Below, in pieces: positions 3,087 through 55,337 of a stretch of 64,000 nt of DNA. Under the pieces are notes generated by a model. It was given only the letters and a program-made list of their open reading frames with translations. It had not been told where the DNA came from and searched no databases. Location of the stretch: NCBI GenBank assembly GCA_037951105.1, contig JBAMJV010003066.1, positions 1 through 64,000 on the forward strand. Direction: 5' to 3'. Every line of letters starts with the position of its first letter. The first letter of the stretch is position 1. The stretch is from Echinarachnius parma. Lineage: Eukaryota > Echinodermata > Echinoidea > Clypeasteroida > Echinarachniidae. Both the position numbers and the translations under genes were made by a program.

Positions 3087-3155
3087 TGTGAAAACACAAT
3101 CCATTAACACTGGGCAAGGAAACTGATCATTTGATAATCATAATTTTATTTCCAG

Positions 3156-6594: not shown

Positions 6595-6598
6595 AGAA

Positions 6599-8378: not shown

Positions 8379-8693
8379 AAGTATGTACGCAACATTTCTT
8401 GTCCGAAATTAAACCCCCTCCCCCTTTACGCACTATTTGTACTTGTTTGCATGTGCTTGAATGTAGTGTACCCACCCGTGTGAATCTCTTGCGACAGATG
8501 GAACTGTTACCATGACAGCCACGATTAATAAATTAGATCAGCTGAGTTGTTAGCTTGTTATCGGTATGGTTAGAAGTGCTTCTTGAATTACAATTTACAT
8601 GTAGCAACCCGATACGAAAATTTTAAACGGCTATTGTATTACAGGGCTTAGAGGCTCGTTGATTGGTCGATATGGTATTCGTCTTTGCTGCAG

Positions 8694-8813
8694 GTACAGT
8701 GATCATCCAGCCGGAAGCAGCCCCTGATGGTGAGGAGGACTGGTCCAGGAGCAAGGAGTTCAAGAAGCATTTTCACAAAGAGAGGAGAGAGAGGAGAGAT
8801 GCACAAGCTCAGA
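8694..8813 (+). pseudogene. ATRX exon A, N-terminal segment before ADD (M1 copy)
   Basis: A CTGCAG acceptor ends at 8693 and an A|GTAAGA donor follows 8813. The frame reads GTVIIQPEAAPDGEEDWSRS, then a basic KEFKKHFHKERRERRDAQAQ tail. Human ATRX has GTVIVQPE followed by an acidic stretch and SRSK at the same place relative to ADD. The exon begins after one base of a codon and ends after one base. That phase agrees with exon B starting GT GCA AGC AGT GAT in M8. This exon is open in all seven copies (M1-M7). It is the least damaged exon, although the frames around it are dead. Confidence 0.85.
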
Positions 8814-9190
8814 GTAAGACTCAGATTATTCTTCCTTACCTATGTAAATAAATTAAAATGAGCACAGAAAATAGGCTTCGACCTAGGGAATAGGGAATCA
8901 ACCAGAGACCTGCGGATTGCTAGACCGGTGCTCAATCATCGAGCCACAAAGACCCTTGAATTTGGGACGTTCTCATGAAACCCATGCTCGTATTGTCAGA
9001 ATTGGTATATAAGCTTTGGTCAGTTTCCTTTATGTTTTAATTTGATTTATTGTGATTTGGAAATCGCATTTCAAATTTAGAGATGCTGTTTATGTGCATA
9101 ATGGGAACAGGCAAATTTGTCTTTCATTACAAAAGTTTTCCAAACTGATTTTAAGTATTGCATTGTTTCTTTGTTGTTCCTCATGAATTG

Positions 9191-9307
9191 GTGCAAGCAG
9201 TGATCCTGTGGACTCGGTGTTCTGTACACAGCCTGCACAGAACAGGTCAATTCCTTTGACAAGAAAACCATCTTCTCTCACCCAGTGCTGTCTGTGTTAT
9301 ATGCTAG
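9191..9307 (+). pseudogene. ATRX exon B, first half of ADD (M1 copy, frameshifted)
   Basis: Reading across one 2-base shift gives SDPVDSVFC then TACTEQVNSFDKKTIFSHP, matching the CTACGQQVNHFQKDSIYRHP region of human ATRX ADD, including the first Cys-x2-Cys zinc ligands. The shift is an extra CA in TGTACACAGCC; M8 reads TGTAGAGCC and keeps the frame. Near the 3' end GTGTTATATGC has lost a G relative to GTGGTTATATGC in M8. The last codon before the GTAGG donor is TAG where ATRX has Lys. The acceptor AG has become TG. Confidence 0.85.
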
Positions 9308-9594
9308 GTAGGAAAAGTCTAAGAACTCGTTTTCATACATTTTTGTTTCATTTATAAATTTGAAATAAAAGAACATTTGTAGTATGATGCAAACTGAGAG
9401 TACCAGAAACTATAAGGGAAACATGAATAGCATATAGGTACACTACATAGGCCTGAAAATAGTGTTTAATTTGCATTATTACATTGTTAGCACTTATTGT
9501 AAAATTTTGAAATGTTTTAATGTTATTTTCTGAAATAAAATCTATGTTTGTCTGTTGAAAGATAACACTCATTTTGTTTGTCTTGCATTTGCAG

Positions 9595-9741
9595 CGCTGC
9601 ATGGAGTTCTACAACAGTAGAACAGTCCATGGATGCTTGATGATGAGGGCATAGAGGAGCAGTGCTGCGATGGTGTGGGGAGGGAGGCAACCTGACTTGC
9701 TGCGACACCTGCCCAAGGATCTTGTGCAAACCCTGCACGAG
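9595..9741 (+). pseudogene. ATRX exon C, second half of ADD (M1 copy, frameshifted)
   Basis: A TTTGCAG acceptor ends at 9594. The start reads RCMEFYNS. After a 5-base insertion (AGAACAGT expansion, absent in M7-M12) it matches WMLDDEGIEEQCR. An extra GA then breaks the frame just before the WCGEGGNLTCCDTCP segment, which corresponds to WCAEGGNLICCDFCH in human ATRX ADD. The sequence runs out at the CKPCTR zinc ligands. The remaining ADD and PHD parts are missing, and a decayed piece of exon D follows instead. Confidence 0.85.
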
Positions 9742-9800
9742 GTCGTACTCAGGGTCGACCCCTAGATCGACCCCGAGATTATCATGGTTGAAACATCCTC

Positions 9801-9830
9801 GTTATAACGAGGTTCTACTGTATCTTTGAT
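9801..9830. repeat. Palindrome CCTCGTTATAACGAGG, likely solo MITE end, recurring before exon D
   Basis: The perfect 16-base palindrome is followed by TTCTACTGTA just upstream of exon D and recurs in each module (M8 has TTATTAGGAGG instead). CAGTAGAACCTCGTTATAACG reads like a Tc1/mariner-type terminal sequence, but no partner end is found nearby. Function is unknown. Confidence 0.5.
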
Positions 9831-9862
9831 GATGTCTTTTTGTTATAAATTTGCCACCCTAG

Positions 9863-10072
9863 ATCATCGCTGAGGAGGATGAGAAAGCGCAGAAGAGCAC
9901 CGTGGTCAAGACCTGCTTGCTGGAGAAGAACAAGGAGACCAACGAGATCGTGCTCGAGGTCGACCCCGAGATCACCAAGCACCTCAAGCCTCACCAAGTG
10001 GACGGGATCACCTTCATGTTTGACAGCACGTTTGAGATGGTGGAGAAGGGTGGCACAATTAAGACCTTACAG
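9863..10072 (+). pseudogene. ATRX exon D, SNF2 ATPase entry (M1 copy, Walker A deleted)
   Basis: A CACCCTAG acceptor and a CAG|GTACAC donor flank 70 in-frame codons: IIAEEDEKAQ, then TCLLEKNKETNEIVLEVDP, then HLKPHQVDGITFMFDSTFE. The KPHQVDG block is the Q-like motif of ATRX helicases. Where ATRX continues GCILAHCMGLGKTLQ, this copy has GGTIKTLQ. A 39-base in-frame deletion (compare M7) removed the P-loop. Even if translated it could not bind ATP normally. On the minus strand the same bases give a shadow frame that I disregard. Confidence 0.88.
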
Positions 10073-10798
10073 GTACACAATCCTTATCTCGTCTTGGGAA
10101 ATGATGGTGATGGTGACGGTGAGGGTGATGTATAATACTTGGCACTGTAAAAAGTAAACTGATTCAAAAGGGAGCTGATAATGATGATGAAGATGATAGT
10201 GATTATCATGGTTGTGGTAGTGGTGGTACGTGGTGATGGTGATCGCCTTGATGTGACTCTTCAGCTCCACTCATGTGTCCAGTTTTGATGTCTGTGTATC
10301 CCATGGGATTGCTGATCTCCAAAATAACGGAGGGAGAATAAGATTATGATGATGGTAGTGTAATACTTGTCACTGTAGAAAGTAAACTGATACAAAAGGA
10401 ATAATAATGATGTCGATGATGATCGTAAAAATGATAATGATAATGTCAATGGTATAAACAAGTACTTGGCATTTCAGGAAGTAAACCAATGCAGATGGAA
10501 GCTATATAATGATGTTAATGGTTATGGCACTAATGATGATAATGATAGCAATGATGATGCTGAATATATAGAAAGTGCATGTATATCAAGCACATGGCTC
10601 AGATGTTTTATAAACACCCACCATTCCTACCGAGTACCTATATATACACATTATTATTCTATCTGTTATTCTTGTTGCCCTATTTCAGGTGATAACCTAC
10701 CTGCATACATAATGACCTGCGAGAAACTAAACGTGGAGACATGGATGGTTGTTGCACCACTCAACACTGTGCTCTACTGGCAAGACGAGTTCGCAAAA

Positions 10799-13340
10799 AG
10801 TATGTACGCAACATTTCTTGTCTGAAATTAAACCCCCTCCCCCTTTACGCACTATTTGTACTTGTTTGCATGTGCTTGAATGTAGTGTACCCACCCGCGT
10901 GAATCTCTTGTGACAGATGGAACTATTACCATGACAGCCACGATTAATAAATTAGATCAGCCGAGTTGTTAGCTTGTTATCGGTATGGTTAGAAGTGCTT
11001 CTTGAATTACAATTTACATGTAGCAACCCGATACGAAAATTTTAAACGGCTATTGTATTACAGGGCTTAGACGCTCGTTGATTGGTCGATATGGTATTCG
11101 TCTTTGCTGCAGGTACAGTGATCATCCAGCCGGAAGCAGCCCCTGATGGTGAGGAGGACTGGTCCAGGAGCAAGGAGTTCAAGAAGCATTTTCACAAAGA
11201 GAGGAGAGAGAGGAGAGATGCACATGCACAAGCTCAGAGTAAGACTCAGATTATTCTTCCTTACCTATGTAAACAAATGAAAATGAGCACAGAAAATAGG
11301 CTTCGACCTAGGGAATAGGGAATCAACCAGAGACCTGCGGATTGCTAGACCGGTGCTCAATCATCGAGCCACAAAGACCCTTGAATTTTGGACGTTCTCA
11401 TGAAACCCATGCTCGTATTGTCAGAATTGCTATATAAACTCTGGTCAGTTTCCTTTATGTTTTAATTTGATTTATTGTGATTTGGAAATCGCATTTCAAA
11501 TTTAGAGATGCTGTTTATGTGCATTATGGGAACAGGCAAATTTGTCTTTCATTACAAAAGTTTTCCAAACTGATTTTAAGCATTGCATTGTTTCTTTGTT
11601 GTTCCTCATGAATTGGTGCAAGCAGTGATCCTGTGGACTCGGTGTTCTGTACACAGCCTGCACAGAACAGGTCAATTCCTTTGACAAGAAAACCATCTTC
11701 TCTCACCCAGTGCTGTCTGTGTTATATGCTAGGTAGGAAAAGTCTAAGAACTTGTTTCATTTATAAATTTGAAATAAAAGAACATTTGTAGTATGATGGA
11801 AATTGAGAGTACCAGAAACTATAAGGGAAACATGAATAGCATATAGGTACACTACATAGGCCTGAAAATAGTGTTTAATTCGCATTATTACATTGTTAGC
11901 ACTTATTGTAAAATTTTGAAATGTTTTAATGTTATTTTCTGAAATAAATTCTATGTTTGTCTGTTGAAAGATAACACTCATTTTGTTTGTCTTGCATTTG
12001 CAGCGCTGCATGGAGTTCTACAACAGTAGAACAGTCCATGGATGCTTGATGATGAGGGCATAGAGGAGCAGTGCCGCGATGGTGTGGGGAGGGAGGCAAC
12101 CTGACTTGCTGCGACACCTGCCCAAGGACCTTGTGCAAACCCTGCACGAGGTCGTACTCAGGGTCGACCCCTAGATCGACCCCGAGATTATCATGGTTGA
12201 AACATCCTCGTTATAACGAGGTTCTACTGTATCTTTGATGATGTCTTTTTGTTATAAATTTGCCACCCTAGATCATCGCTGAGGAGGATGAGAAAGCGCA
12301 GAAGAGCACCGTGGTCAAGACCTGCTTGCTGGAGAAGAACAAGGAGACCAACGAGATCGTGCTCGAGGTCGACCCCGAGATCACCAAGCACCTCAAGCCT
12401 CACCAAGTGGACAGGATCACCTTCATGTTTGACAGCACGTTTGAGATGGTGGAGAAGGGTGGCACAATTAAGACCTTACAGGTACACAATCCTTATCTCG
12501 TCTTGGGAAATGATGGTGATGGTGACGGTGAGGGTGATGTATAATACTTGGCACTGTAAAAAGTAAACTGATTCAAAAGGGAGCTGATAATGATGATGAA
12601 GATGATAGTGATTATCATGGTTGTGGTAGTGGTGGTACGTGGTGATGGTGATCGCCTTGATGTGACTCTTCAGCTCCACTCATGTGTCCAGTTTTGATGT
12701 CTGTGTGTCCCATGTGATTGCTGATCTCCAAAATAACGGAGGGAGAATAAGATTATGATGATGGTAGTGTAATACTTGTCACTGTAGAAAGTAAACTGAT
12801 ACAAAAGGAATAATAATGATGTCGATGATGATCGTAAAAATGATAATGATAATGTCAATGGTATAAACAAGTACTTGGCATTTCAGGAAGTAAACCAATG
12901 CAGATGGAAGCTATATAATGATGTTAATGGTTATGGCACTAATGATAATAATGATAGCAATGATGATGCTGAATATATAGAAAGTGCATGTATATCAAGC
13001 ACATGGCTCAGATGTTTTATAAACACCCACCATTCCTACCGAGTACCTATATATACACATTATTATTCTATCTGTTGTTCTTGTTGCCCTATTTCAGGTG
13101 ATAACCACTGGCGTAAATCTGTTCGGAAAGCACAATGCATTGGGGGGTCGAGCAATTGTTCACAAACCGTTTGTGAACAATTGCTCGACCCCCCAATGCA
13201 TTGTGTTTTCCGGACAGATTTACGCCAGTGGTGATAACCTACCTGCATACATAATGACCTGCGAGAAACTAAACGTGGAGACATGGATGGTTGTTGCACC
13301 ACTCAACACTGTGCTCTACTGGCAAGACGAGTTCGCAAAA
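10799..13340 (+). pseudogene. ATRX-derived pseudogene module M2
   Basis: Exons: A 11113-11238 (6 bases longer than M1, GCACAT added), B 11616-11732, C 12004-12150, D 12272-12481, E 13098-13340. E is interrupted by a 125 bp palindromic hAT-type MITE at 13106-13230. The module carries the same B, C, D and E lesions as M1. D is unique in reading VDRIT rather than VDGIT (G to A change). Like M1 it keeps the EVDPEITK variant and VVAPLNT in E. The 3' end of E (GCAAAA) is fused to the upstream flank, the same junction as in M1. M2 therefore arose by tandem duplication of an already fused unit. Confidence 0.9.
13106..13230. mobile_element. 125 bp palindromic hAT-type MITE in exon E (M2 copy)
   Basis: The element starts CACTGGCGTAAATCTG and ends with its reverse complement CAGATTTACGCCAGTG. 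The two halves pair almost completely, with two mismatches seen and the centre at ACAAAC/CGTTTG. It is flanked by the 8-base duplication GTGATAAC (13098-13105 and 13231-13238), which is single in M1, M6 and M8-M12. An 8-base target duplication of form nTnnnnAn and CA...TG ends are hallmarks of Ac-like hAT elements. There is no coding capacity. Confidence 0.88.
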
Positions 13341-15898
13341 AGTATGTACGCAACATTTCTTGTCTGAAATTAAACCCGCTCCCCCTTTACGCACTATTTG
13401 TACTTGTTTGCATGTGCTTGAATGTAGTGTACCCACCCGCGTGAATCTCTTGTGACAGATGGAACTGTTACCATGACAGCCACGATTAATAAATTAGATC
13501 AGCCGAGTTGTTAGCTTGTTATCGGTATGGTTAGAAGTGCTTCTTGAATTACAATTTACATGTAGCAACCCGATACAAAAATTTTAAACGGCTATTGTAT
13601 TACAGGGCTTAGACGCTCGTTGATTGGTCGATATGGTATTCGTCTTTGCTGCAGGTACAGTGATCATCCAGCCGGAAGCAGCCCCTGATGGTGAGGAGGA
13701 CTGGTCCAGGAGCAAGGAGTTCAAGAAGCATTTTCACAAAGAGAGGAGAGAGAGGAGAGATGCACATGCACAAGCTCAGAGTAAGACTCAGATTATTCTT
13801 CCTTACCTATGTAAACAAATGAAAATGAGCACAGAAAATAGGCTTCGACCTAGGGAATAGGGAATCAACCAGAGACCTGCGGATTGCTAGACCGGTGCTC
13901 AATCATCGAGCCACAAAGACCCTTGAATTTTGGACGTTCTCATGAAACCCATGCTCGTATTGTCAGAATTGCTATATAAACTCTGGTCAGTTTCCTTTAT
14001 GTTTTAATTTGATTTATTGTGATTTGGAAATCGCATTTCAAATTTAGAGATGCTGTTTATGTGCATAATGGGAACAGGCAAATTTGTCTTTCATTACAAA
14101 AGTTTTCCAAACTGATTTTAAGCATTGCATTGTTTCTTTGTTGTTCCTCATGAATTGGTGCAAGCAGTGATCCTGTGGACTCGGTGTTCTGTACACAGCC
14201 TGCACAGAACAGGTCAATTCCTTTGACAAGAAAACTATCTTCTCTCACCCAGTGCCGTCTGTGTTATATGCTAGGTAGGAAAAGTCTAAGAACTCGTTTT
14301 CATACATTTTTGTTTCATTTATAAATTTGAAATAAAAGAACATTTGTAGTATGATGCAAATTGAGAGTACCAGAAACTATAAGGGAAACATGAATAGCAT
14401 ATAGGTACATTACATAGGCCTGAAAATAGTGTTTAATTCGTATTATTACATTGTTAGCACTTATTGTAAAATTTTGAAATGTTTTAATGTTATTTTCTGA
14501 AATAAATTCTATGTTTGTCTGTTGAAAGATAACACTCATTTTGTTTGTCTTGCATGTGCAGCGCTGCATGGAGTTCTACAACAGTAGAACAGTCCATGGA
14601 TGCTTGATGATGAGGGCATAGAGGAGCAGTGCCGCGATGGTGTGGGGAGGGAGGCAACCTGACTTGCTGCGACACCTGCCCAAGGACCTTGTGCAAACCC
14701 TGCACGAGGTCGTACTCAGGGTCGACCCCTAGATCGACCCCGAGATTATCATGGTTGAAACATCCTCGTTATAACGAGGTTCTACTGTATCTTTGATGAT
14801 GTCTTTTTGTTATAAATTTGCCACCTTAGATCATCGCTGAGGAGGATGAGAAAGCGCAGAAGAGCACCGTGGTCAAGACCTGCTTGCTGGAGAAGAACAA
14901 GGAGACCAACGAGATCGTGCTCGAGCTCGACCCCGAGATCACCAAGCACCTCAAGCCTCACCAAGTGGACGGGATCACCTTCATGTTTGACAGCACGTTT
15001 GAGATGGTGGAGAAGGGTGGCACAATTAAGACCTTACAGGTACACAATCCTTATCTCGTCTTGGGAAATGATGGTGATGGTGACGGTGAGGGTGATGTAT
15101 AATACTTGGCACTGTAAAAAGTAAACTGATTCAAAAGGGAGCTGATAATGATGATGAAGATGATAGTGATTATCATGGTTGTGGTAGTGGTGGTACGTGG
15201 TGATGGTGATCGCCTTGATGTGACTCTTCAGCTCCACTCATGTGTCCAGTTTTGATGTCTGTGTGTCCCATGGGATTGCTGATCTCCAAAATAACGGAGG
15301 GAGAATAAGATTATGATGATGGTAGTGTAATACTTGTCACTGTAGAAAGTAAACTGATACAAAAGGAATAATAATGATGTCGATGATGATCGTAAAAATG
15401 ATAATGATAATGTCAATGGTATAAACAAGTACTTGGCATTTCAGGAAGTAAACCAATGCAGATGGAAGCTATATAATGATGTTAATGGTTATGGCACTAA
15501 TGATGATAATGATAGCAATGATGATGCTGAATATATAGAAAGTGCATGTATATCAAGCACATGGCTCAGATGTTTTATAAACACCCACCATTCCTACCGA
15601 GTACCTATATATACACATTATTATTCTATCTGTTGTTCTTGTTGCCCTATTTCAGGTGATAACCACTGGCGTAAATCTGTTCGGAAAGCACAATGCATTG
15701 GGGGGTCGAGCAATTGTTCACAAACCGTTTGTGAACAATTGCTCGACCCCCCAATGCATTGTGTTTTCCGGACAGATTTACGCCAGTGGTGATAACCTAC
15801 CTGCATACATAATGACCTGCGAGAAACTAAACGTGGAGACATGGATGGTTGTTGCACCACTCAACACTGTGCTCTACTGGCAAGACGAGTTCGCAAAA
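13341..15898 (+). pseudogene. ATRX-derived pseudogene module M3
   Basis: Exons: A 13655-13780, B 14158-14274, C 14562-14708, D 14830-15039, E 15656-15898 with the hAT MITE. The shared B, C, D and E disablements are all present. D now reads LELDPEITK, the variant kept in M4-M6 and M8-M12. The exon D acceptor is CACCTTAG here and in M4. Period to M4 is exactly 2,558 bases. Confidence 0.9.
15664..15788. mobile_element. 125 bp palindromic hAT-type MITE (M3 copy)
   Basis: Same element, same insertion point and same GTGATAAC duplication (15656-15663 and 15789-15796) as in M2. The copy was inherited with the module rather than inserted again. Confidence 0.88.
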
Positions 15899-18456
15899 AG
15901 TATGTATGCAACATTTCTTGTCTGAAATTAAACCCGCTCCCCCTTTACGCACTATTTGTACTTGTTTGCATGTGCTTGAATGTAGTGTACCCACCCGCGT
16001 GAATCTCTTGTGACAGATGGAACTGTTACCATGACAGCCACGATTAATAAATTAGATCAGCCGAGTTGTTAGCTTGTTATCGGTATGGTTAGAAGTGCTT
16101 CTTGAATTACAATTTACATGTAGCAACCCGATACGAAAATTTTAAACGGCTATTGTATTACAGGGCTTAGACGCTCGTTGATTGGTCGATATGGTATTCG
16201 TCTTTGCTGCAGGTACAGTGATCATCCAGCCGGAAGCAGCCCCTGATGGTGAGGAGGACTGGTCCAGGAGCAAGGAGTTCAAGAAGCATTTTCACAAAGA
16301 GAGGAGAGAGAGGAGAGATGCACATGCACAAGCTCAGAGTAAGACTCAGATTATTCTTCCTTACCTATGTAAACAAATGAAAATGAGCACAGAAAATAGG
16401 CTTCGACCTAGGGAATAGGGAATCAACCAGAGACCTGCGGATTGCTAGACCGGTGCTCAATCATCGAGCCACAAAGACCCTTGAATTTTGGACGTTCTCA
16501 TGAAACCCATGCTCGTATTGTCAGAATTGCTATATAAACTCTGGTCAGTTTCCTTTATGTTTTAATTTGATTTATTGTGATTTGGAAATCGCATTTCAAA
16601 TTTAGAGATGCTGTTTATGTGCATAATGGGAACAGGCAAATTTGTCTTTCATTACAAAAGTTTTCCAAACTGATTTTAAGCATTGCATTGTTTCTTTGTT
16701 GTTCCTCATGAATTGGTGCAAGCAGTGATCCTGTGGACTCGGTGTTCTGTACACAGCCTGCACAGAACAGGTCAATTCCTTTGACAAGAAAACTATCTTC
16801 TCTCACCCAGTGCCGTCTGTGTTATATGCTAGGTAGGAAAAGTCTAAGAACTCGTTTTCATACATTTTTGTTTCATTTATAAATTTGAAATAAAAGAACA
16901 TTTGTAGTATGATGCAAATTGAGAGTACCAGAAACTATAAGGGAAACATGAATAGCATATAGGTACATTACATAGGCCTGAAAATAGTGTTTAATTCGTA
17001 TTATTACATTGATAGCACTTATTGTAAAATTTTGAAATGTTTTAATGTTATTTTCTGAAATAAATTCTATGTTTGTCTGTTGAAAGATAACACTCATTTT
17101 GTTTGTCTTGCATGTGCAGCGCTGCATGGAGTTCTACAACAGTAGAACAGTCCATGGATGCTTGATGATGAGGGCATAGAGGAGCAGTGCCGCGATGGTG
17201 TGGGGAGGGAGGCAACCTGACTTGCTGCGACACCTGCCCAAGGACCTTGTGCAAACCCTGCACGAGGTCGTACTCAGGGTCGACCCCTAGATCGACCCCG
17301 AGATTATCATGGTTGAAACATCCTCGTTATAACGAGGTTCTACTGTATCTTTGATGATGTCTTTTTGTTATAAATTTGCCACCTTAGATCATCGCTGAGG
17401 AGGATGAGAAAGCGCAGAAGAGCACCGTGGTCAAGACCTGCTTGCTGGAGAAGAACAAGGAGACCAACGAGATCGTGCTCGAGCTCGACCCCGAGATCAC
17501 CAAGCACCTCAAGCCTCACCAAGTGGACGGGATCACCTTCATGTTTGACAGCACGTTTGAGATGGTGGAGAAGGGTGGCACAATTAAGACCTTACAGGTA
17601 CACAATCCTTATCTCGTCTTGGGAAATGATGGTGATGGTGACGGTGAGGGTGATGTATAATACTTGGCACTGTAAAAAGTAAACTGATTCAAAAGGGAGC
17701 TGATAATGATGATGAAGATGATAGTGATTATCATGGTTGTGGTAGTGGTGGTACGTGGTGATGGTGATCGCCTTGATGTGACTCTTCAGCTCCACTCATG
17801 TGTCCAGTTTTGATGTCTGTGTGTCCCATGGGATTGCTGATCTCCAAAATAACGGAGGGAGAATAAGATTATGATGATGGTAGTGTAATACTTGTCACTG
17901 TAGAAAGTAAACTGATACAAAAGGAATAATAATGATGTCGATGATGATCGTAAAAATGATAATGATAATGTCAATGGTATAAACAAGTACTTGGCATTTC
18001 AGGAAGTAAACCAATGCAGATGGAAGCTATATAATGATTTTAATGGTTATGGCACTAATGATAATAATGATAGCAATGATGATGCTGAATATATAGAAAG
18101 TGCATGTATATCAAGCACATGGCTCAGATGTTTTATAAACACCCACCATTCCTACCGAGTACCTATATATACACATTATTTTTCTATCTGTTGTTCTTGT
18201 TGCCCTATTTCAGGTGATAACCACTGGCGTAAATCTGTTCGGAAAGCACAATGCATTGGGGGGTCGAGCAATTGTTCACAAACCGTTTGTGAACAATTGC
18301 TCGACCCCCCAATGCATTGTGTTTTCCGGACAGATTTACGCCAGTGGTGATAACCTACCTGCATACATAATGACCTGCGAGAAACTAAACGTGGAGACAT
18401 GGATGGTTGTTGCACCACTCAACACTGTGCTCTACTGGCAAGACGAGTTCGCAAAA
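15899..18456 (+). pseudogene. ATRX-derived pseudogene module M4
   Basis: Exons: A 16213-16338, B 16716-16832, C 17120-17266, D 17388-17597, E 18214-18456 with the hAT MITE. It is nearly identical to M3, including the CACCTTAG acceptor and CATGTGCAG before exon C. The two are very recent duplicates. All inherited disablements are present. Confidence 0.9.
18222..18346. mobile_element. 125 bp palindromic hAT-type MITE (M4 copy)
   Basis: Third inherited copy, with the same target duplication at 18214-18221 and 18347-18354. Confidence 0.88.
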
Positions 18457-20590
18457 AGTATGTACGCAACATTTCTTGTCTGAAATTAAACCCGCTCCCC
18501 CTTTACGCACTATTTGTACTTGTTTGCATGTGCTTGAATGTAGTGTACCCACCCGCGTGAATCTCTTGTGACAGATGGAACTGTTACCATGACAGCCACG
18601 ATTAATAAATTAGATCAGCCGAGTTGTTAGCTTGTTATCGGTATGGTTAGAAGTGCTTCTTGAATTACAATTTACATGTAGCAACCCGATACGAAAATTT
18701 TAAACGGCTATTGTATTACAGGGCTTAGACGCTCGTTGATTGGTCGATATGGTATTCGTCTTTGCTGCAGGTACAGTGATCATCCAGCCGGAAGCAGCCC
18801 CTGATGGTGAGGAGGACTGGTCCAGGAGCAAGGAGTTCAAGAAGCATTTTCACAAAGAGAGGAGAGAGAGGAGAGATGCACATGCACAAGCTCAGAGTAA
18901 GACTCAGATTATTCTTCCTTACCTATGTAAACAAATGAAAATGAGCACAGAAAATAGGCTTCGACCTAGGGAATAGGGAATCAACCAGAGACCTGCGGAT
19001 TGCTAGACCGGTGCTCAATCATCGAGCCACAAAGACCCTTGAATTTGGGAAGTTCTCATGAAACCCATGCTCGTATTGTCAGAATTGGTATTTAAACTCT
19101 GGTCAGTTTCCTTTATGTTTTAATTTGATTTATTGTGATTTGGAAATCGCATTTCAAATTTAGAGATGCTGTTTATGTGCATAATGGGAACAGGCAAATT
19201 TGTCTTTCATTACAAAAGTTTTCCAAACTGATTTTAAGCTTTGCATTGTTTCTTTGTTGTTCCTCATGAATTGGTGCAAGCAGTGATCCTGTGGACTCGG
19301 TGTTCTGTACACAGCCTGCACAGAACAGGTCAATTCCTTTGACAAGAAAACCATCTTCTCTCACCCAGTGCTGTCTGTGTTATATGCTAGGTAGGAAAAG
19401 TCTAAGAACTTTTGTAGTATGATGCAAATTGAGAGTACCAGAAACTATAAGGGAAACATGAATAGCATATAGGTACATTACATAGGCCTGAAAATAGTGT
19501 TTAATTCGCATTATTACATTGTTAGCACTTATTGTAAAATTTTGAAATGTTTTAATGTTATTTTCTGAAATAAATTCTATGTTTGTCTGTTGAAAGATAA
19601 CACTCATTTTGTTTGTCTTGCATTTGCAGCGCTGCATGGAGTTCTACAACAGTAGAACAGTCCATGGATGCTTGATGATGAGGGCATAGAGGAGCAGTGC
19701 CGCGATGGTGTGGGGAGGGAGGCAACCTGACTTGCTGCGACACCTGCCCAAGGACCTTGTGCAAACCCTGCACGAGGTCGTACTCAGGGTCGACCCCTAG
19801 ATCGACCCCGAGATTATCATGGTTGAAACATCCTCGTTATAACGAGGTTCTACTGTATCTTTGATGATGTCTTTTTGTTATAAATTTGCCACCCTAGATC
19901 ATCGCTGAGGAGGATGAGAAAGCGCAGAAGAGCACCGTGGTCAAGACCTGCTTGCTGGAGAAGAACAAGGAGACCAACGAGATCGTGCTCGAGCTCGACC
20001 CCGAGATCACCAAGCACCTCAAGCCTCACCAAGTGGACGGGATCACCTTCATGTTTGACAGCACGTTTGAGATGGTGGAGAAGGGTGGCACAATTAAGAC
20101 CTTACAGGTACACAATCCTTATCTCGTCTTGGGAAATGATGGTGATGGTGACGGTGAGGGTGATGTATAATACTTGGCACTGTAAAAAGTAAACTGATTC
20201 AAAAGGGAGCTGATAATGATGATGAAGATGATAGTGATTATCATGGTTATGGTAGTGGTAGTACGTGCATGGTGATGGTGATCGCCTTGATGTGACTCTT
20301 CAGCTCCACTCATGTGTCCAGTTTTGATGTCTGTGTGTCCCATGGGATTGCTGATCTCCAAAATAACGGAGGGAGAATAAGATTATGATGATGGTAGTGT
20401 AATACTTGTCACTGTAGAAAGTAAACTGATACAAAAGGAATAATAATGATGTCGATGATGATCGTAAAAATGATAATGAAAATGTCAATGGTATAAACAA
20501 GTACTTGGCATTTCAGGAAGTAAACCAATGCAGATGGAAGCTATATAATGATGTTAATGGTTATGGCAATGATGTTAATGGTTATGGTTG
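18457..20590 (+). pseudogene. ATRX-derived pseudogene module M5, exon E deleted
   Basis: Exons: A 18771-18896, B 19274-19390, C 19630-19776, D 19898-20107. It lacks about 70 bases of the B-C intron (around 19411). Its 3' part is missing: at 20565-20590 the intron sequence ATGATGTTAATGGTTATGG is repeated once and then jumps straight into ACAGATGGAACTG, the start of the next module. Exon E, its MITE and the first ~115 bases of M6 were lost in one deletion. Confidence 0.9.
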
Positions 20591-27680: not shown

Positions 27681-27783
27681 GCTGACCAAGTTCCTGCTGC
27701 CAAAGCACGAATACGTGGTCAGCGTGCATCTCTCCCCAGACCAGATCGCCCTCCACGAGCTGTATCTCAACACGCTGACATCT
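27664..27783 (+). pseudogene. ATRX exon F, second half of the SNF2 ATPase (fragment)
   Basis: A TTTCTTACAG acceptor ends at 27663. The frame reads RKDYSALTKFLLPKHEYVV, then SVHLSPDQIALHELYLNTLT. Human ATRX has QRKDYTALTKFLPPKHEYVL followed by a YQYYLDHLT segment, in the region linking the two ATPase lobes. The exon ends without a recognisable donor, and from about 27811 the sequence is the intron just before exon B. Coding order is therefore broken: a late ATPase exon lies directly upstream of an ADD exon. It is open across the matched part but has no partners. Confidence 0.85.
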
Positions 27784-27873
27784 TCCCTAATCTTTTAAAA
27801 ACTTTTTGATGCAAAAGTTTTCCAAACTGATTTTAAGCATTGCATCGTTTTCTGTGTTGTTCCTTATGAATAG

Positions 27874-45091: not shown

Positions 45092-47636
45092 CAGTGATCT
45101 TGTGGTCTCGGTGTTCTGTACACAGCCTGCACAGAACAGGTCAATTCCTTTGACAAGAAAACCATCTTCTCTCACCCAGTGCTGTCTGTGTTATATGCTA
45201 GGTAGGAAAAGTCTAAGAACTTGTTTTCATACATTTTTGTTTCATTTATAAATTTGAAATAAAAGAACATTTGTAGTATGATGCAAATTGAGAGTACCAG
45301 AAACTCTAAGGGAAACATGAATAGCATATAGGTACATTACATAGGCCTGGAAATAGTGTTTAATTCGCATTATTACATTGTTAGCACTTATTGTAAAATT
45401 TTGAAATGTTTTAATGTTATTTTCTGAAATAAATTCTATGTTTGTCTGTTGAAAGATAACACTCATTTTGATTGTCTTGCATTTGTAGCGCTGCATGGAG
45501 TTCTACAACAGTGGTCCATGGATGCTTGATGATGAGGGCATAGAGGAGCAGTGCCGCGATGGTGTGGGGAGGGAGGCAACCTGACTTGCTGCGACACCTG
45601 CCCAAGGACCTTGTGCAAACCCTGCACGAGGTCGTACTCGGGGTCGACCCCTAGATCGACCCCGAGATTATCATGGTTGAAACATCCTCGTTATAACGAG
45701 GTTCTACTGTATCTTTGATGATGTCTTTTTTTTATAAATTTGCCACCCTAGATCATCGCTGAGGAGGATGAGAAAGCGCAGAAGAGCACTATGGTCAAGA
45801 CCTGCTTGCTGGAGAAGAACAACGAGACTAACGAGATCGTGCTCGAGCTCGACCCCGAGATCACCAAGCACCTCAAGCCTCACCAAGTGGACGGGATCAC
45901 CTTCATGTTTGACAGCACGTTTGAGATGGTGGAGAAGGGTGGCACAATTAAGACCTTACAGGTACACAATCCTTATCTCGTCTTGGGAAATGATGGTGAT
46001 GGCGACGGTGAGGGTGATGTATAATACTTGGCACTGTAAAAAGTAAACTGATTCAAAAGGGAGCTGATAATGATGATGAAGATGATAGTGATTATCATGG
46101 TTGTGGTAGTGGTAGTACGTGGTGATGGTGATCGCCTTGATGTGACTCTTCAGCTCCACTCATGTGTCCAGTTTTGATGTCTGTGTGTCCCATGGGATTG
46201 CTGATCTCCAAAATAACGGAGGGAGAATAAGATTATGATGATGGTAGTGTAATACTTGTCACTGTAGAAAGTAAACTGATACAAAAGGAATAATAATGAT
46301 GTCGATGATGATCGTAAAAATGATCATGATAATGTCAATGGTATAAACAAGTACTTGGCATTTCAGGAAGTAAACCAATGCAGATGGAAGCTATATAATG
46401 ATGTTAATGGTTATGGCACTATTGATAATGATAATAATGATAACAATGATGATGCTGAATATATAGAAAGTGCATATATATCAAGCACATGACTCAGATG
46501 TTTTATAAACACCCACCATTCCTACCGAGTACCTATATATACACATTATTATTCTATCTGTTGTTCTTGTTGCCCTATTTCAGGTGATAACCTACCTGCA
46601 TACATAATGACCTGCGAGAAACTAAACGTGGAGACATGGATGGTTGTTCCACCACTCAACACTGTGCTCTACTGGCAAGACGAGTTCGCAAAATGGATCG
46701 GTCACATGGACAGTGGAATTGAAGTGAGTGCATTCAAGTTTTATCTTAGAATTTAGAATTATGTAGTATCTTTAAATATTATGTATTTTGTTTCCGTCTT
46801 GGGTCTGTCAGTCATGGCGCTCAATATTGTTATGATATTACCATCCTAATGTGTATTATGAAGCTCTACAAATGTGTATTTGCCATTCAATATCAGACAA
46901 TATTACCACTCCATGGAGCTGATATTCAATCCACCGCATTTATTAATGACGTATGAATGGCTTTGCGCATGAATACATTTACGCACCTCTGCTATAGTAC
47001 GCACAAATGGCCCTTCGTGGGTTGAAAATGTTTAATCCGTAAGTTGAGATTCAATACATTGGTCTTCTTCACTGAACAAGACGGAGTAAAATGTATGTTT
47101 TTGTTTATTTATGTTTTGCTCTGGATAGTATGTATAATAATAATAATAATATTGACTGGCCTTGAGTGGTATATCAGAAATATTGCACTCGTCTTCGACT
47201 CATACAATATGATCCTAGCGAATGCAATATTTCTGATATACCACTCAAGGCAAGTCTATATGAAAGTTTGGCATCACATAGAGAATGAGAAGGCTCTGAC
47301 CTACAACATGTGACCGGCTACAGCAAAACCGGCCACCTGTCGGTAAAAAACGAAATGTTGATTCGTATACATTACAAAGGCCTCATTTGATCCTTTGTTC
47401 TTACTAATTGGTCAATAATAGGCGATCAAATCAAAGGTCTTTTACACACATTGTGTGAACTTAAAATGCCCATTTCTTTGAATCGCGAATTACCGACAAG
47501 TGCCAGGTTTTGCTATAACCAGTCACATATTGTATGCAGAAGTAAATTTAGTAAAAAAAAAATCGGCTTCTCACCCTTCTTGCGTTCTCAATCGCATCAT
47601 GCAAGTTTATATGTATGATTTATTTGAACTTCAGAT
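45092..47636 (+). pseudogene. ATRX-derived pseudogene module M11
   Basis: Exons: B 45092-45201, C 45489-45630, D 45752-45961, E 46584-46723. It is a copy of M10 displaced by 7,701 bases, with no difference noticed in the exons. The foldback MITE lies at 47150-47260. Confidence 0.9.
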
Positions 47637-50600
47637 CTAGCTCCCAGCTCCAAGCATCTAGCTCCCAGCTCCAAGCATCTAGCTCCCAGCTCCAAGCTTC
47701 TAGCTCCCAGCTCCAAGCTTCTAGCTCCCAGCTCCAAGCTTCTAGCTCCCAGCTCCAAGCTTCTAGCTCCCAGCTCCAAGCTTCTAGCTCCCAGCTCCAA
47801 GCTTCTAGCTCCCAGCTCCAAGCTTCTAGCTCCCAGCTCCAAGCTTCCAGCTCCCAGCTCCAAGCATCTAGCTCCCAGCTCCAAGCTTCTAGCTCCCAGC
47901 TCCAAGCTTCTAGCTCCCAGCTTCAAGCATCTAGCTCCAAGCTCCAAGCATCTAGCTACCAGCTTCAAGCATCTAGCTCCCAGCTCCAAGCTTCTAGCTC
48001 CCAGCTCCAAGCTTCTAGCTCCCAGCTCCAAGCTTCTAGCTCCCAGCTCCAAGCATCTAGCTCCCAGCTCCAAGCTTCTAGCTCCCAGCTCCAAGCTTCT
48101 AGCTCCCAGCTCCAAGCTTCTAGCTACCTGCTCCAAGCATCTAGCTCCCAGCTTCAAGCATCTAGCTCCCAGCTTCAAGCATCTAGCTCCCAGCTTCAAG
48201 CATCTAGCTCCCAGCTTCAAGCTCCCAGCTCCAAGCATCTAGCTACCAGCTCCAAGCATCTAGCTACCAGCTTCAAGCATCTAGCTCCCAGCTCCAAGCT
48301 TCTAGCTCCCAGCTCCAAGCTTCTAGCTCCCAGCTCCAAGCTTCTAGCTCCCAGCTCCAAGCTTCTAGCTCCCAGCTCCAAGCTTCTAGCTCCCAGCTCC
48401 AAGCATCTAGCTCCCAGCTCCAAGCATCTAGCTACCAGCTTCAAGCATCTAGCTCCCAGCTCCAAGCTTCTAGCTCCCAGCTCCAAGCTTCTAGCTCCCA
48501 GCTCCAAGCTTCTAGCTCCCAGCTCCAAGCTTCTAGCTCCCAGCTCCAAGCTTCTAGCTCCCAGCTCCAAGCATCTAGCTCCCAGCTCCAAGCATCTAGC
48601 TCCCAGCTCCAAGCTTCTAGCTCCCAGCTCCAAGCTTCTAGCTCCCAGCTCCAAGCTTCTAGCTCCCAGCTCCAAGCTTCTAGCTCCCAGCTCCAAGCTT
48701 CTAGCTCCCAGCTCCAAGCTTCCAGCTCCCAGCTCCAAGCATCTAGCTCCCAGCTCCAAGCTTCTAGCTCCCAGCTTCAAGCATCTAGCTCCAAGCTCCA
48801 AGCATCTAGCTACCAGCTTCAAGCATCTAGCTCCCAGCTCCAAGCTTCTAGCTCCCAGCTCCAAGCTTCTAGCTCCCAGCTCCAAGCTTCTAGCTCCCAG
48901 CTCCAAGCATCTAGCTCCCAGCTCCAAGCTTCTAGCTCCCAGCTCCAAGCTTCTAGCTCCCAGCTCCAAGCTTCTAGCTCCCAGCTCCAAGCTTCTAGCT
49001 CCCAGCTTCAAGCTTCTAGCTCCCAGCTCCAAGCATCTAGCTCCCAGCTCCAAGCTTCTAGCTCCCAGCTCCAAGCTTCTAGCTCCCAGCTCCAAGCTTC
49101 TAGCTCCCAGCTCCAAGCTTCTAGCTCCCAGCTCCAAGCTTCTAGCTCCCAGCTCCAAGCTTCTAGCTCCCAGCTCCAAGCATCTAGCTACCAGCTCCAA
49201 GCTTCTAGCTCCCAGCTCCAAGCTTCTAGCTCCCAGCTCCAAGCATCTAGCTCCCAGCTTCTAGCTCCAAGCTTCTAGCTCCCAGCTCCAAGCTTCTAGC
49301 TCCCAGCTCCAAGCTTCTAGCTCCCAGCTCCAAGCTTCTAGCTCCCAGCTCTAAGCTTCTAGCTCCCAGCTCCAAGCTTCTAGCTCCCAGCTCCAAGCTT
49401 CTAGCTCCCAGCTCCAAGCATCTAGCTCCCAGCTCCAAGCTTCTAGCTCCCAGCTCCAAGCTTCCAGCTCCCAGCTCCAAGCTTCCAGCTCCCAGCTCCA
49501 AGCATCTAGCTCCCAGCTCCAAGCTTCTAGCTCCCAGCTCCAAGCTTCTAGCTCCCAGCTCCAAGCATCTAGCTACCAGCTCCAAGCATCTAGCTCCCAG
49601 CTTCAAGCATCTAGCTCCCAGCTTCAAGCATCTAGCTCCCAGCTCCAAGCTTCTAGCTCCCAGCTCCAAGCTTCTAGCTCCCAGCTCCAAGCATCTAGCT
49701 CCCAGCTCCAAGCTTCTAGCTCCCAGCTCCAAGCTTCTAGCTCCCAGCTCCAAGCATCTAGCTCCCAGCTCCAAGCTTCTAGCTCCCAGCTCCAAGCTTC
49801 TAGCTCCCAGCTCCAAGCATCTAGCTCCCAGCTCCTAGCTCCCAGCTCCAAGCATCTAGCTACCAGCTCCAAGCATCTAGCTCCCAGCTTCAAGCATCTA
49901 GCTCCCAGCTTCAAGCATCTAGCTCCCAGCTCCAAGCTTCTAGCTCCCAGCTCCAAGCTTCTAGCTCCCAGCTCCAAGCATCTAGCTACCAGCTCCAAGC
50001 TTCTAGCTCCCAGCTCCAAGCTTCTAGCTCCCAGCTCCAAGCATCTAGCTCCCAGCTTCTAGCTCCAAGCTTCTAGCTCCCAGCTCCAAGCTTCTAGCTC
50101 CCAGCTCCAAGCTTCTAGCTCCCAGCTCCAAGCTTCTAGCTCCCAGCTCCAAGCTTCTAGCTCCCAGCTCCAAGCTTCTAGCTCCCAGCTCCAAGCTTCT
50201 AGCTCCCAGCTCCAAGCATCTAGCTCCCAGCTCCAAGCTTCTAGCTCCCAGCTCCAAGCTTCCAGCTCCCAGCTCCAAGCTTCTAGCTCCCAGCTCCAAG
50301 CATCTAGCTCCCAGCTCCAAGCTTCTAGCTCCCAGCTCCAAGCTTCTAGCTCCCAGCTCCAAGCATCTAGCTACCAGCTCCAAGCATCTAGCTCCCAGCT
50401 TCAAGCATCTAGCTCCCAGCTTCAAGCATCTAGCTCCCAGCTCCAAGCTTCTAGCTCCCAGCTCCAAGCTTCTAGCTCCCAGCTCCAAGCATCTAGCTCC
50501 CAGCTCGAAGCTTCTAGCTCCCAGCTCCAAGCTTCTAGCTCCCAGCTCCAAGCATCTAGCTCCCAGCTCCTAGCTCCCAGCTCCAAGCATCTAGCTACCA

Positions 50601-52792
50601 GCTCCAAGCATCTAGCTCCCAGCTTCAAGCATCTAGCTCCCAGCTTCAAGCATCTAGCTCCCAGCTCCAAGCTTCTAGCTCCCAGCTCCAAGCTTCTAGC
50701 TCCAAGCTCCAAGCATCTAGCTCCCAGCTCCAAGCTTCTAGCTCCCAGCTCCAAGCTTCTAGCTCCCAGCTCCAAGCATCTAGCTCCCAGCTCCAAGCTT
50801 CTAGCTCCCAGCTCCAAGCTTCTAGCTCCCAGCTCCAAGCATCTAGCTCCAAGCTTCTAGCTCCCAGCTCCAAGCTTCTAGCTCCCAGCTCCAAGCTTCT
50901 AGCTCCCAGCTCCAAGCATCTATCTACCAGCTCCAAGCTTCTAGCTCCCAGCTCCAAGCTTCTAGCTCCCAGCTTCAAGCATCTAGCTCCAAGCTTCAAG
51001 CTCCCAGCTCCAAGCATCTAGCTACCAGCTTCAAGCATCTAGCTCCCAGCTCCAAGCTTCTAGCTCCCAGCTCCAAGCTTCTAGCTCCCAGCTCAAAGCT
51101 TCTAGCTCCCAGCTCCAAGCTTCTAGCTCCCAGCTCCAAGCATCTAGCTACCAGCTTCAAGCTTCTAGCTCCCAGCTCCAAGCATCTAGCTACCAGCTCC
51201 AAGCATCTAGCTCCCAGCTTCAAGCATCTAGCTCCCAGCTTCAAGCATCTAGCTCCCAGCTCCAAGCTTCTAGCTCCCAGCTCCAAGCTTCTAGCTCCCA
51301 GCTCCAAGCTTCTAGCTCCCAGCTCCAAGCTTCTAGCTCCCAGCTCCAAGCTTCTAGCTCCCAGCTCCAAGCATCTAGCTCCCAGCTCCAAGCTTCTAGC
51401 TCCCAGCTCCAAGCTTCTAGCTCCCAGCTCCAAGCTTCTAGCTCCCAGCTCCAAGCTTCTAGCTCCCAGCTCCAAGCTTCCAGCTCCCAGCTCCAAGCTT
51501 CTAGCTCCCAGCTCCAAGCATCTAGCTCCCAGCTCCAAGCTTCTAGCTCCCAGCTCCAAGCTTCTAGCTCCCAGCTCCAAGCTTCTAGCTCCCAGCTCCA
51601 AGCTTCTAGCTCCCAGCTCCAAGCTTCCAGCTCCCAGCTCCAAGCTTCTAGCTCCCAGCTCCAAGCTTCTAGCTCCCAGCTCCAAGCTTCTAGCTCCCAG
51701 CTTCAAGCATCTAGCTCCAAGCTTCTAGCTCCCAGCTCCAAGCATCTAGCTCCAAGCTTCTAGCTCCCAGCTCCAAGCTTCTAGCTCCCAGCTCCAAGCA
51801 TCTAGCTCCCAGCTCCAAGCTTCTAGCTCCCAGCTCCAAGCTTCTAGCTTCTAGCTCCAAGCTTCTAGCTCCCAGCTCCAAGCTTCTAGCTCCCAGCTCC
51901 AAGCATCTAGCTCCCAGCTTCTAGCTCCAAGCTTCTAGCTCCCAGCTCCAAGCTTCTAGCTCCCAGCTCCAAGCTTCTAGCTCCCAGCTCCAAGCTTCTA
52001 GCTCCCAGCTCCAAGCTTCTAGCTCCCAGCTCCAAGCATCTAGCTCCCAGCTCCAAGCTTCTAGCTCCCAGCTCCAAGCTTCTAGCTCCCAGCTCCAAGC
52101 TTCTAGCTCCCAGCTCCAAGCATCTAGCTCCCAGCTCCAAGCTTCTAGCTCCCAGCTCCAAGCTTCCAGCTCCCAGCTCCAAGCTTCTAGCTCCCAGCTC
52201 CAAGCATCTAGCTCACAGCTCCAAGCTTCTAGCTCCCAGCTCCAAGCTTCTAGCTCCCAGCTCCAAGCATCTAGCTACCAGCTCCAAGCATCTAGCTCCC
52301 AGCTTCAAGCATCTAGCTCCCAGCTTCAAGCATCTAGCTCCCAGCTCCAAGCTTCTAGCTCCCAGCTCCAAGCTTCTAGCTCCCAGCTCCAAGCATCTAG
52401 CTCCCACCTCCAAGCTTCTAGCTCCCAGCTCCAAGCTTCTAGCTCCCAGCTCCAAGCATCTAGCTCCCAGCTCCAAGCATCTAGCTCCCAGCTTCTAGCT
52501 CCCAGCTCCAAGCTTCTAGCTCCCAGCTCCAAGCATATAGCTCCCAGCTCCCAGCTCCAAGCTTCTAGCTCCCAGCTCCAAGCATCTAGCTCCCAGCTCC
52601 AAGCTTCTAGCTCCCAGCTCCAAGCTTCTAGCTCCCAGCTCCAAGCATCTAGCTACCAGCTTCAAGCATCTAGCTCCCAGCTTCAAGCATCTAGCTCCCA
52701 GCTTCAAGCATCTAGCTCCCAGCTTCAAGCATCTAGCTCCAAGCTTCAAGCATCTAGCTCCCAGCTTCAAGCATCTAGCTCCCAGCTCCAAT
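47637..52792. repeat. 21 bp minisatellite array 4 (~245 copies)
   Basis: Essentially a duplicate of array 3, with isolated substitutions (for example GCTCTAAGC at about 49350 and CCCACCTCC at about 52406). Confidence 0.97.
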
Positions 52793-55337
52793 CAGTGATC
52801 TTGTGGTCTCGGTGTTCTGTACACAGCCTGCACAGAACAGGTCAATTCCTTTGACAAGAAAACCATCTTCTCTCACCCAGTGCTGTCTGTGTTATATGCT
52901 AGGTAGGAAAAGTCTAAGAACTTGTTTTCATACATTTTTGTTTCATTTATAAATTTGAAATAAAAGAACATTTGTAGTATGATGCAAATTGAGAGTACCA
53001 GAAACTCTAAGGGAAACATGAATAGCATATAGGTACATTACATAGGCCTGGAAATAGTGTTTAATTCGCATTATTACATTGTTAGCACTTATTGTAAAAT
53101 TTTGAAATGTTTTAATGTTATTTTCTGAAATAAATTCTATGTTTGTCTGTTGAAAGATAACACTCATTTTGATTGTCTTGCATTTGTAGCGCTGCATGGA
53201 GTTCTACAACAGTGGTCCATGGATGCTTGATGATGAGGGCATAGAGGAGCAGTGCCGCGATGGTGTGGGGAGGGAGGCAACCTGACTTGCTGCGACACCT
53301 GCCCAAGGACCTTGTGCAAACCCTGCACGAGGTCGTACTCGGGGTCGACCCCTAGATCGACCCCGAGATTATCATGGTTGAAACATCCTCGTTATAACGA
53401 GGTTCTACTGTATCTTTGATGATGTCTTTTTTTTATAAATTTGCCACCCTAGATCATCGCTGAGGAGGATGAGAAAGCGCAGAAGAGCACTATGGTCAAG
53501 ACCTGCTTGCTGGAGAAGAACAACGAGACTAACGAGATCGTGCTCGAGCTCGACCCCGAGATCACCAAGCACCTCAAGCCTCACCAAGTGGACGGGATCA
53601 CCTTCATGTTTGACAGCACGTTTGAGATGGTGGAGAAGGGTGGCACAATTAAGACCTTACAGGTACACAATCCTTATCTCGTCTTGGGAAATGATGGTGA
53701 TGGCGACGGTGAGGGTGATGTATAATACTTGGCACTGTAAAAAGTAAACTGATTCAAAAGGGAGCTGATAATGATGATGAAGATGATAGTGATTATCATG
53801 GTTGTGGTAGTGGTAGTATGTGGTGATGGTGATCGCCTTGATGTGACTCTTCAGCTCCACTCATGTGTCCAGTTTTGATGTCTGTGTGTCCCATGGGATT
53901 GCTGATCTCCAAAATAACGGAGGGAGAATAAGATTATGATGATGGTAGTGTAATACTTGTCACTGTAGAAAGTAAACTGATACAAAAGGAATAATAATGA
54001 TGTCGATGATGATCGTAAAAATGATCATGATAATGTCATTGGTATAAACAAGTACTTGGCATTTCAGGAAGTAAACCAATGCAGATGGAAGCTATATAAT
54101 GATGTTAATGGTTATGGCACTATTGATAATGATAATAATGATAACAATGATGATGCTGAATATATAGAAAGTGCATATATATCAAGCACATGACTCAGAT
54201 GTTTTATAAACACCCACCATTCCTACCGAGTACCTATATATACACATTATTATTCTATCTGTTGTTCTTGTTGCCCTATTTCAGGTGATAACCTACCTGC
54301 ATACATAATGACCTGCGAGAAACTAAACGTGGAGACATGGATGGTTGTTCCACCACTCAACACTGTGCTCTACTGGCAAGACGAGTTCGCAAAATGGATC
54401 GGTCACATGGACAGTGGAATTGAAGTGAGTGCATTCAAGTTTTATCTTAGAATTTAGAATTATGTAGTATCTTTAAATATTATGTATTTTGTTTCCGTCT
54501 TGGGTCTGTCAGTCATGGCGCTCAATATTGTTATGATATTACCATCCTAATGTGTATTATGAAGCTCTACAAATGTGTATTTGCCATTCAATATCAGACA
54601 ATATTACCACTCCATGGAGCTGATATTCAATCCACCGCATTTATTAATGACGTATGAATGGCTTTGCGCATGAATACATTTACGCACCTCTGCTATAGTA
54701 CGCACAAATGGCCCTTCGTGGGTTGAAAATGTTTAATCCGTAAGTTGAGATTCAATACATTGGTCTTCTTCACTGAACAAGACGGAGTAAAATGTATGTT
54801 TTTGTTTATTTATGTTTTGCTCTGGATAGTATGTATAATAATAATAATAATATTGACTGGCCTTGAGTGGTATATCAGAAATATTGCACTCGTCTTCGAC
54901 TCATACAATATGATCCTAGCGAATGCAATATTTCTGATATACCACTCAAGGCAAGTCTATATGAAAGTTTGGCATCACATAGAGAATGAGAAGGCTCTGA
55001 CCTACAACATGTGACCGGCTACAGCAAAACCGGCCACCTGTCGGTAAAAAACGAAATGTTGATTCGTATACATTACAAAGGCCTCATTTGATCCTTTGTT
55101 CTTACTAATTGGTCAATAATAGGCGATCAAATCAAAGGTCTTTTACACACATTGTGTGAACTTAAAATGCCCATTTCTTTGAATCGCGAATTACCGACAA
55201 GTGCCAGGTTTTGCTATAACCAGTCACATATTGTATGCAGAAGTAAATTTAGTAAAAAAAAAATCGGCTTCTCACCCTTCTTGCGTTCTCAATCGCATCA
55301 TGCAAGTTTATATGTATGATTTATTTGAACTTCAGAT
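52793..55337 (+). pseudogene. ATRX-derived pseudogene module M12
   Basis: Exons: B 52793-52902, C 53190-53331, D 53453-53662, E 54285-54424. It again lies 7,701 bases after M11. Private changes include GTAGTATGTGG (near 53815) and AATGTCATTGG (near 54036). The foldback MITE lies at 54851-54961. All inherited disablements are present. Confidence 0.9.

Follow-up and report, generated by a model that had tools for sequence, protein, structure and literature searches.

The window, that is, the whole stretch of 64,000 nucleotides analysed, contains a tandem array of dead fragments of the gene for the chromatin remodeller ATRX. We propose that this array very probably originated as an unprocessed pseudogene fragment which was joined to a piece of a transposon, multiplied by unequal exchange and then amplified together with a satellite.

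Organization of the array

Self-comparison of the window resolved twelve modules between positions 8378 and 55337, the starts of which are given in Table 1; module 6 is truncated at its 5' end. Protein pieces derived from the parent gene matched the window at 12 (piece C), 12 (D) and 10 (E) places at E <= 1e-5, and none of the three had a match at this threshold in 20 windows shuffled in two-base blocks. Pieces B, C and D are present in all twelve modules, E in ten and A in seven (modules 1-7). The pieces A to E listed in the first-pass annotation are present, but it had missed the extra helicase exon piece. A is absent from modules 8-12, and module 7 has a longer D, in which the Walker A stretch is retained with a Gly to Val change. 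Parts of the 1-kb direct duplication match later sequence of the ATRX gene.

With head-to-tail units of more than 1 kb, the array is organized like a macrosatellite. Between higher-order units 1 and 2, each of 7,701 bp, identity reaches 99.95%, and assembly may therefore have influenced how many units are seen. Unit 3 shows 94% identity to both across the whole unit, with numerous gaps. Over B-D, identity between modules 3 and 4 is 99.9%; the divergence of the remaining window modules from module 3 over these pieces lies between 0.1 and 10%, and they carry private indels.

Table 1. Positions of the modules and neighbouring features in the window.
Feature	Position	Strand	Contents or remarks
Broken reverse-transcriptase-like frames, 5' flank	708..1412	-	ORF reading
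52-bp tandem array, 5' flank	4871..6596	+	Also on C1536, C601 and C4160
Internal piece of dispersed element (~1.5 kb, ~28-bp inverted ends)	8133..8677	+	Four other copies compared
Module 1	8378..10796	+	Transposon piece, A, B, C, D, partial E
Module 2	10797..13338	+	E with palindromic insert
Module 3	13339..15896	+	A 13646-13796, B 14124-14337, C 14524-14704, D 14794-15079
Piece E of module 3	15642-15898	+	Palindromic insert inside
Module 4	15897..18454	+	E with palindromic insert
Module 5	18455..20587	+	E not found
Module 6	20588..23512	+	E and tail
Module 7	23576..25683	+	Older type, longer transposon piece, E not found; start by self-comparison 23935
1-kb direct duplication	25679..27677	+	25679-26677 and 26679-27677
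Extra ATRX helicase exon piece	27661..27777	+	Open frame; human ATRX 9l06, E 8.4e-8
Module 8	27812..30463	+	B, C with stop, D, E, tail
21-bp satellite block	30464..31536	+
Module 9	31537..34774	+	B, C, D, E, tail
21-bp satellite block	34775..37386	+
Higher-order unit 1	37387..45087	+	7,701 bp; module 10 and satellite
Higher-order unit 2	45088..52788	+	7,701 bp; module 11 and satellite
Module 12	52789..55337	+	Beginning of unit 3
21-bp satellite	55338..64000	+

The parent gene

In a comparison limited to PDB sequences, the best matches of pieces C, D and E, and of the helicase piece, were to human ATRX, which rules out another SNF2 family as the source within that set; a best match to another SNF2 family had been named in the first-pass annotation as one result that would overturn it. 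Because a Pfam search of the pieces gave matches below the cut-off only, and none at all for C, the assignment is based on the PDB comparison together with the parent gene. The intact ATRX locus, whose search had been recommended, is represented by an apparently intact gene on a contig other than that of the array (C1675). Its 3.3-kb ADD exon has an open frame of 1151 amino acids and, among the matches listed, was found at full length in this one place; the gene also possesses a GLGKT Walker A motif, an in-frame E and the helicase exon. From exon A to the helicase exon the parent stretch measures approximately 13.8 kb, and its order of pieces, A-B-C-D-E, is that of the modules, as had been read from their ATRX blocks. 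Alignments between modules and parent continue through the introns, which are therefore retained, ruling out a processed (retro) pseudogene.

Deletion and disabling lesions

The region between the ADD and ATPase exons, recorded as absent when the array was first described, has been removed by a 5.48-kb deletion which joins the two exons. The exact joint was found in 25 of 26 copies; in the remaining copy the joint is accompanied by a further small deletion next to it. In all 26 copies examined, the ADD exon (piece C) carries a +2 frameshift, which prevents the reading of this exon in a single frame and is incompatible with a functional ATRX frame across the modules. Frameshifts affect piece E in 19 of 22 copies; the three on C601 are in frame. 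A 39-bp deletion has eliminated Walker A from 11 of the 12 window copies, the remaining one being that with the Gly to Val change; across five contigs the motif is missing through deletion from 20 of 25 copies. The frame of D is open despite this deletion, and that of exon A is kept in 16 of 17 copies examined; like the in-frame E on C601, these points tell against the pseudogene origin.

The lesions agree with the earlier description of the fragments as dead, and the array is probably an unusual repeat without function. Joints and lesions held in common point to one founder, as had been supposed. Two lesions in B, common to most copies, are absent from module 8 and its partner on C2520, so that conversion or a separate piece is required to account for this pair. 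In having a parent gene in the same genome, introns, disabling lesions and variation from copy to copy that shows no coding constraint, the modules have the character of unprocessed pseudogenes.

Variation and copies on other contigs

Among 25 copies, the mean copy-to-copy distance was 0.0289 in exons and 0.0228 in introns, and the mean distance to the parent 0.065 and 0.147, respectively; between copies, exon variation is on a par with intron variation. Variable sites in B, C and D combined numbered 13/128, 11/128 and 18/126 at codon positions 1, 2 and 3. The excess at the third position is mild; it would count against a reading of neutral decay, for which the counts as a whole speak. Several forks of the copy tree were without support.

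The count of twelve that was first given holds for the window, but the total is larger, with at least 39 ATRX fragments on six contigs. By C pieces these comprise at least 16 on C2520, 11 on C3065, four each on C1536 and C13817, three on C601 and one on C4160, counts that may include alleles as well as paralogues. Copies of the locus together with its flank are seen on several contigs, with identities of roughly 90-100%, and window positions 18346-33354 are found again on C2520, in the same order, at 98-99%. Farther out, at the one distance sampled, only two stretches (711 and 208 columns, 72-76%) aligned between the flanks on C601 and C4160, and the comparison with C1536 gave no alignment.

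Satellite and transposon piece

The 21-bp satellite adjoins the tails of the modules and is also present in positions 64001-66000 of contig C3065; the motif was absent from five samples of 2-2.6 kb taken from that contig at 75, 100, 150, 300 and 412 kb. The first-pass annotation had the array seeding megasatellite-like DNA. A derivation of the satellite from ATRX sequence is rejected, since the 21-bp core has no match within 20 kb around the parent gene. As we read the junctions, the satellite was amplified jointly with the last modules and carried along in later duplications.

On the 5' side, the transposon piece is joined almost directly to exon A. The broken frames at the start of the window we take to be a LINE-like relic.

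Proposed origin and alternative explanations

According to the proposed scheme, the genomic stretch from exon A to the helicase exon would have been duplicated to another place in the genome and fused with the interior of a transposon with terminal inverted repeats. The 5.48 kb between the ADD and ATPase exons would then have been lost through end joining, and the +2 frameshift acquired. The dead, intron-bearing fragment may first have been multiplied head to tail through a junction of exon E with the transposon piece, at which approximately 2 bp are shared, and later by unequal exchange, with further decay (the frameshift in E, the Walker A deletion and the palindromic insert in E). Finally, the 3' side would have met the unrelated 21-bp satellite, and the two would have been amplified as the 7.7-kb unit. 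The order of some of these steps, and unequal exchange as the engine, are what we infer from the present arrangement.

The near identity of units 1 and 2 and of modules 3 and 4, and the recurrence on C13817, at 100%, of a 1,701-bp part of the 5' flank, might suggest that the assembler multiplied one or a few modules. The private indels and divergence of the other modules and the repeated order on C2520 make this most improbable, and such an artefact could alter the copy count but hardly the existence of the array. The preserved exon order and splice-like borders would suit an active ATRX gene of large size that uses the modules as alternative exons; with working-looking exons on C1675 and C frameshifted in every copy examined, this reading is scarcely credible. 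A single functional ATRX transcript running across the modules, the other result said to overturn the first description, is rejected on the full-length ADD exon of C1675 and the same frameshift. A sex-chromosomal ATRX duplicate is on record in the axolotl, where ATRW lies at a new place on the W chromosome and is about 90% identical to ATRX (excerpt of PMC6294749). The array, found on several contigs with its flank, might likewise be the remnant of a sex-limited duplicate that degenerated and multiplied in a region without recombination. ATRW is one gene copy, as against dozens of dead fragments here. The satellite was absent from the five C3065 samples at 75 kb and beyond; we regard this origin as unlikely.

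A regulatory role is suggested by the Su(Ste) repeats of Drosophila, in which, according to an excerpt of PMC7874207, a frameshifted gene-derived piece and a transposon occur at high copy, with a homologous gene elsewhere. The tandem anatomy is alike, although the transposon is another one and the target here would be the ATRX gene. By analogy, antisense transcripts might give rise to small RNAs silencing ATRX or an ATRX-derived selfish copy, and the copies do share exact runs with the ATRX exons, of 90 nt in D, 56 in C, 44 in B, 35 in E and 27 in A, where the exon bounds are approximate. Runs of such size are expected in any young pseudogene, and the simpler expectation for the transposon piece, lying 5' of the sense frame, is that it would drive its module in the sense direction, which leaves this role quite unlikely. 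We favour the amplified pseudogene.

Comparison with known repeats and significance

Like other amplified unprocessed pseudogenes and macrosatellites, the array has kept introns, disabling lesions and head-to-tail units of more than 1 kb; it differs from the typical pseudogene macrosatellite in its chromatin-remodeller source, its transposon-chimera founder and the 21-bp satellite within the higher-order unit. A comparable case is importin-4, an ordinary gene of which fragments are repeated on the Y chromosome of Bactrocera oleae, with a predicted exon-intron structure and a fit to neutral evolution; in the excerpt of PMC3049792 these fragments are placed on the Y, the X and pericentromeres by FISH, whereas the ATRX array is known from contigs. 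No earlier report of amplified ATRX fragments was found among the papers listed in searches of one open-licence library.

The source gene is itself noteworthy. The ATRX protein acts on tandem repeats and guards them. Its axolotl duplicate lies on a sex chromosome (excerpt of PMC6294749). Were the array a trans-acting silencer whose chimeric-repeat small RNAs lower ATRX in the germ line, which we consider very unlikely, a satellite made from pieces of its guardian would weaken the restraint on its further growth. As a pseudogene-derived repeat, the array allows the passage from a piece of a housekeeping gene to a macrosatellite to be followed stepwise, through transposon fusion, deletion, frameshift, tandem growth and the joining of a satellite.

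Array of ATRX fragments and the parent gene

Self-comparison of the window recovered 12 modules of ~2-3 kb each, in agreement with the twelve-copy array reported in the first-pass annotation; the contig that carries them, C3065 (414,601 bases, of which the window is the first 64,000), belongs to a 1.2-Gb assembly comprising 14,790 contigs. The single COX1 match in this assembly has no stops when TGA is translated as Trp, and its only AAA codon and its ATA codons fall at sites that normally hold Asn and Ile, respectively; this indicates the echinoderm/hemichordate mitochondrial code, and the host is thus probably an echinoderm or something related. Among the exon pieces, designated A to E in gene order, A was present in 7/12 modules, B, C (giant ADD exon) and D (ATPase) in 12/12, and E in 10/12, and matches to C, D and E numbered 12, 12 and 10 versus none in 20 shuffled windows. 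The ATRX origin that had been proposed is borne out by the best matches of C (ADD domain of ATRX, 3ql9, E 2.8e-6), D (human ATRX, 9l06, E 8.2e-17) and E (ATRX, 9l06, E 5.2e-5). An extra helicase exon piece, missed in that annotation, also matches ATRX.

A genome search with module 3 located a more distant relative on C1675, and the intact ATRX locus for which a search had been proposed was thereby traced to apparently intact exons separate from the window contig. The minus strand there carries exons A, B, the giant exon, D, E and a further helicase exon; "apparently intact" refers to these exons within the 20 kb examined. The giant exon of this parent has an open frame of 1151 aa with an ATRX ADD match (E 7.6e-26), D carries GLGKT and E is in frame. 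In its full 3.3-kb length the giant exon occurs once in the assembly, in contrast to several SNF2 matches in near-equal contig pairs (C902/C3472, C6793/C3384, C3490/C8882 and C4926/C1966), which suggest that the assembly left haplotypes unmerged or that duplication was recent. Partial extra exons lie beside the true exons of the parent, so small tandem duplication has happened within the ATRX gene.

Locations of features in the window and on related contigs
Feature	Location	Remarks
Modules 1-12 (starts)	Window 8378, 10797, 13339, 15897, 18455, 20588, 23935, 27812, 31537, 37387, 45088, 52789	Last three also start units 1-3
Dispersed element, ~600 bp	Window ~2500-3097	Inverted ends ~45 bp
52-bp tandem array	Window 4871-6596	5' flank; 103-bp period as well
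Palindromic insert, ~130 bp	Window 13097-13239, 15655-15797, 18213-18355	Exon E of modules 2-4
Extra helicase exon piece	Window 27661-27777
Exon B, module 8	Window 27839-28052
Satellite motif	C2520:240001-249426
Partial extra exon A (two)	C1675 ~372.8-373.1 kb	L040
Partial extra exon D (one)	C1675 366.0-366.1 kb	L039

Anatomy of a module

At its 5' end a module has a piece of a dispersed element (~1.5 kb, inverted ends of ~28 bp) broken ~205 bp short of its own 3' end, followed almost directly by exon A and then by B, the first part of the giant exon, D and E. Between the giant-exon piece and the point just before D, modules skip 5.48 kb of parent sequence, with ~1 base shared at the joint; this is the ADD-ATPase region previously described as absent. 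In modules 1-4 a truncated E abuts the next module's transposon piece directly, with ~2 shared A bases, and in modules 6 and 8-12 E extends further into a tail, part of which is ~78% identical to later ATRX sequence. On our reading, the 21-bp satellite starts where this later sequence arrives at the following ATRX exon's acceptor. The palindromic insert, which is MITE-like and flanked by a direct repeat of ~9-10 bp, recurs on C2520.

Disabling lesions

The description of the modules as dead fragments is supported by several lesions. In 26/26 copies from five contigs, the length of the giant-exon piece is changed by a net +2 bp. E is out of frame in 19/22 copies (18 net -1, one net +4), namely 10/10 in the window, five on C2520, three on C1536 and one on C4160, and is in frame in all three C601 copies. 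D has lost 39 bp including Walker A in 11/12 window copies, the remaining one reading GLVKT; over five contigs the deletion is found in 20/25 copies, and the five retaining the stretch all show Gly to Val, with Lys altered too in one. B carries +2 and -1 in 11/12 window copies. Module 8 and its C2520 partner are without these two frameshifts, through either conversion or a separate origin.

Between copies, exons are as variable as introns (0.0289 vs 0.0228), with variable sites at 13/128, 11/128 and 18/126 by codon position; from copy to parent, exons differ less than introns (0.065 vs 0.147). Counter to deadness, A keeps its frame in 16/17 copies and D is still open.

Distribution and flanks

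Besides the parent, the C piece occurs at no fewer than 39 places (C2520 16, C3065 11, C1536 4, C13817 4, C601 3, C4160 1), a lower bound taken from the 40 candidates scored among 910, parent included and module 8 not among them. Among the matches listed for 1,701 bp of 5' flank, C13817 is 100% and C1536 and C4160 are 95% identical, C601 not appearing there; nearer the array, the C601 flank matches at ~90% over 2.8 kb. The 52-bp array is common to the flanks examined on C1536, C601 and C4160. These loci may be alleles or duplicates of one another; within sampled far flanks only two stretches aligned (72-76%), both between C601 and C4160. Copies of the ~600-bp element with 93-95% identity lie on no fewer than 36 further contigs, and a frame near it resembles the end of a Tc1-type transposase.

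On C3065 the satellite occurs past the window as well, at 64-66 kb, and the motif was absent from five samples further along; the motif also covers ~5.6 kb of C601, and the search loci checked on C1536 and C4160 gave at most two motif counts.

History and classification

In a tree of copies, which included two from C601 and left 11/19 inner branches open, module 7, its C2520 partner, C1536_319163 and the two C601 copies fall outside the remaining group; these are the five copies whose Walker A stretch survives, with Val in place of Gly. The data are consistent with a founder bearing the transposon joint, the deletion and the +2, in whose descendants, other than those on C601, E would have been frameshifted; loss of Walker A, growth of the array and insertion of the palindrome, in three neighbouring modules and again on C2520, would have followed in that order. 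The last copies would have arisen together with satellite, at a spacing of 7,701 bp per unit. Identity between units 1 and 2 is 99.95%, and unit 3 is 94% identical to both, its module part nearly identical and its satellite part not. The introns of the copies are ~1/6 as distant from one another as from the parent, so the array grew or was homogenised much later than it was founded.

In anatomy the array resembles Su(Ste) as described in PMC7874207; a locus of that type would be defined by its small RNA. In axolotl, a duplicate of ATRX is sex-linked (PMC6294749). The array is best classified as a macrosatellite built by amplification of an unprocessed pseudogene fragment; repeats of this kind are known, but the source gene is unusual.
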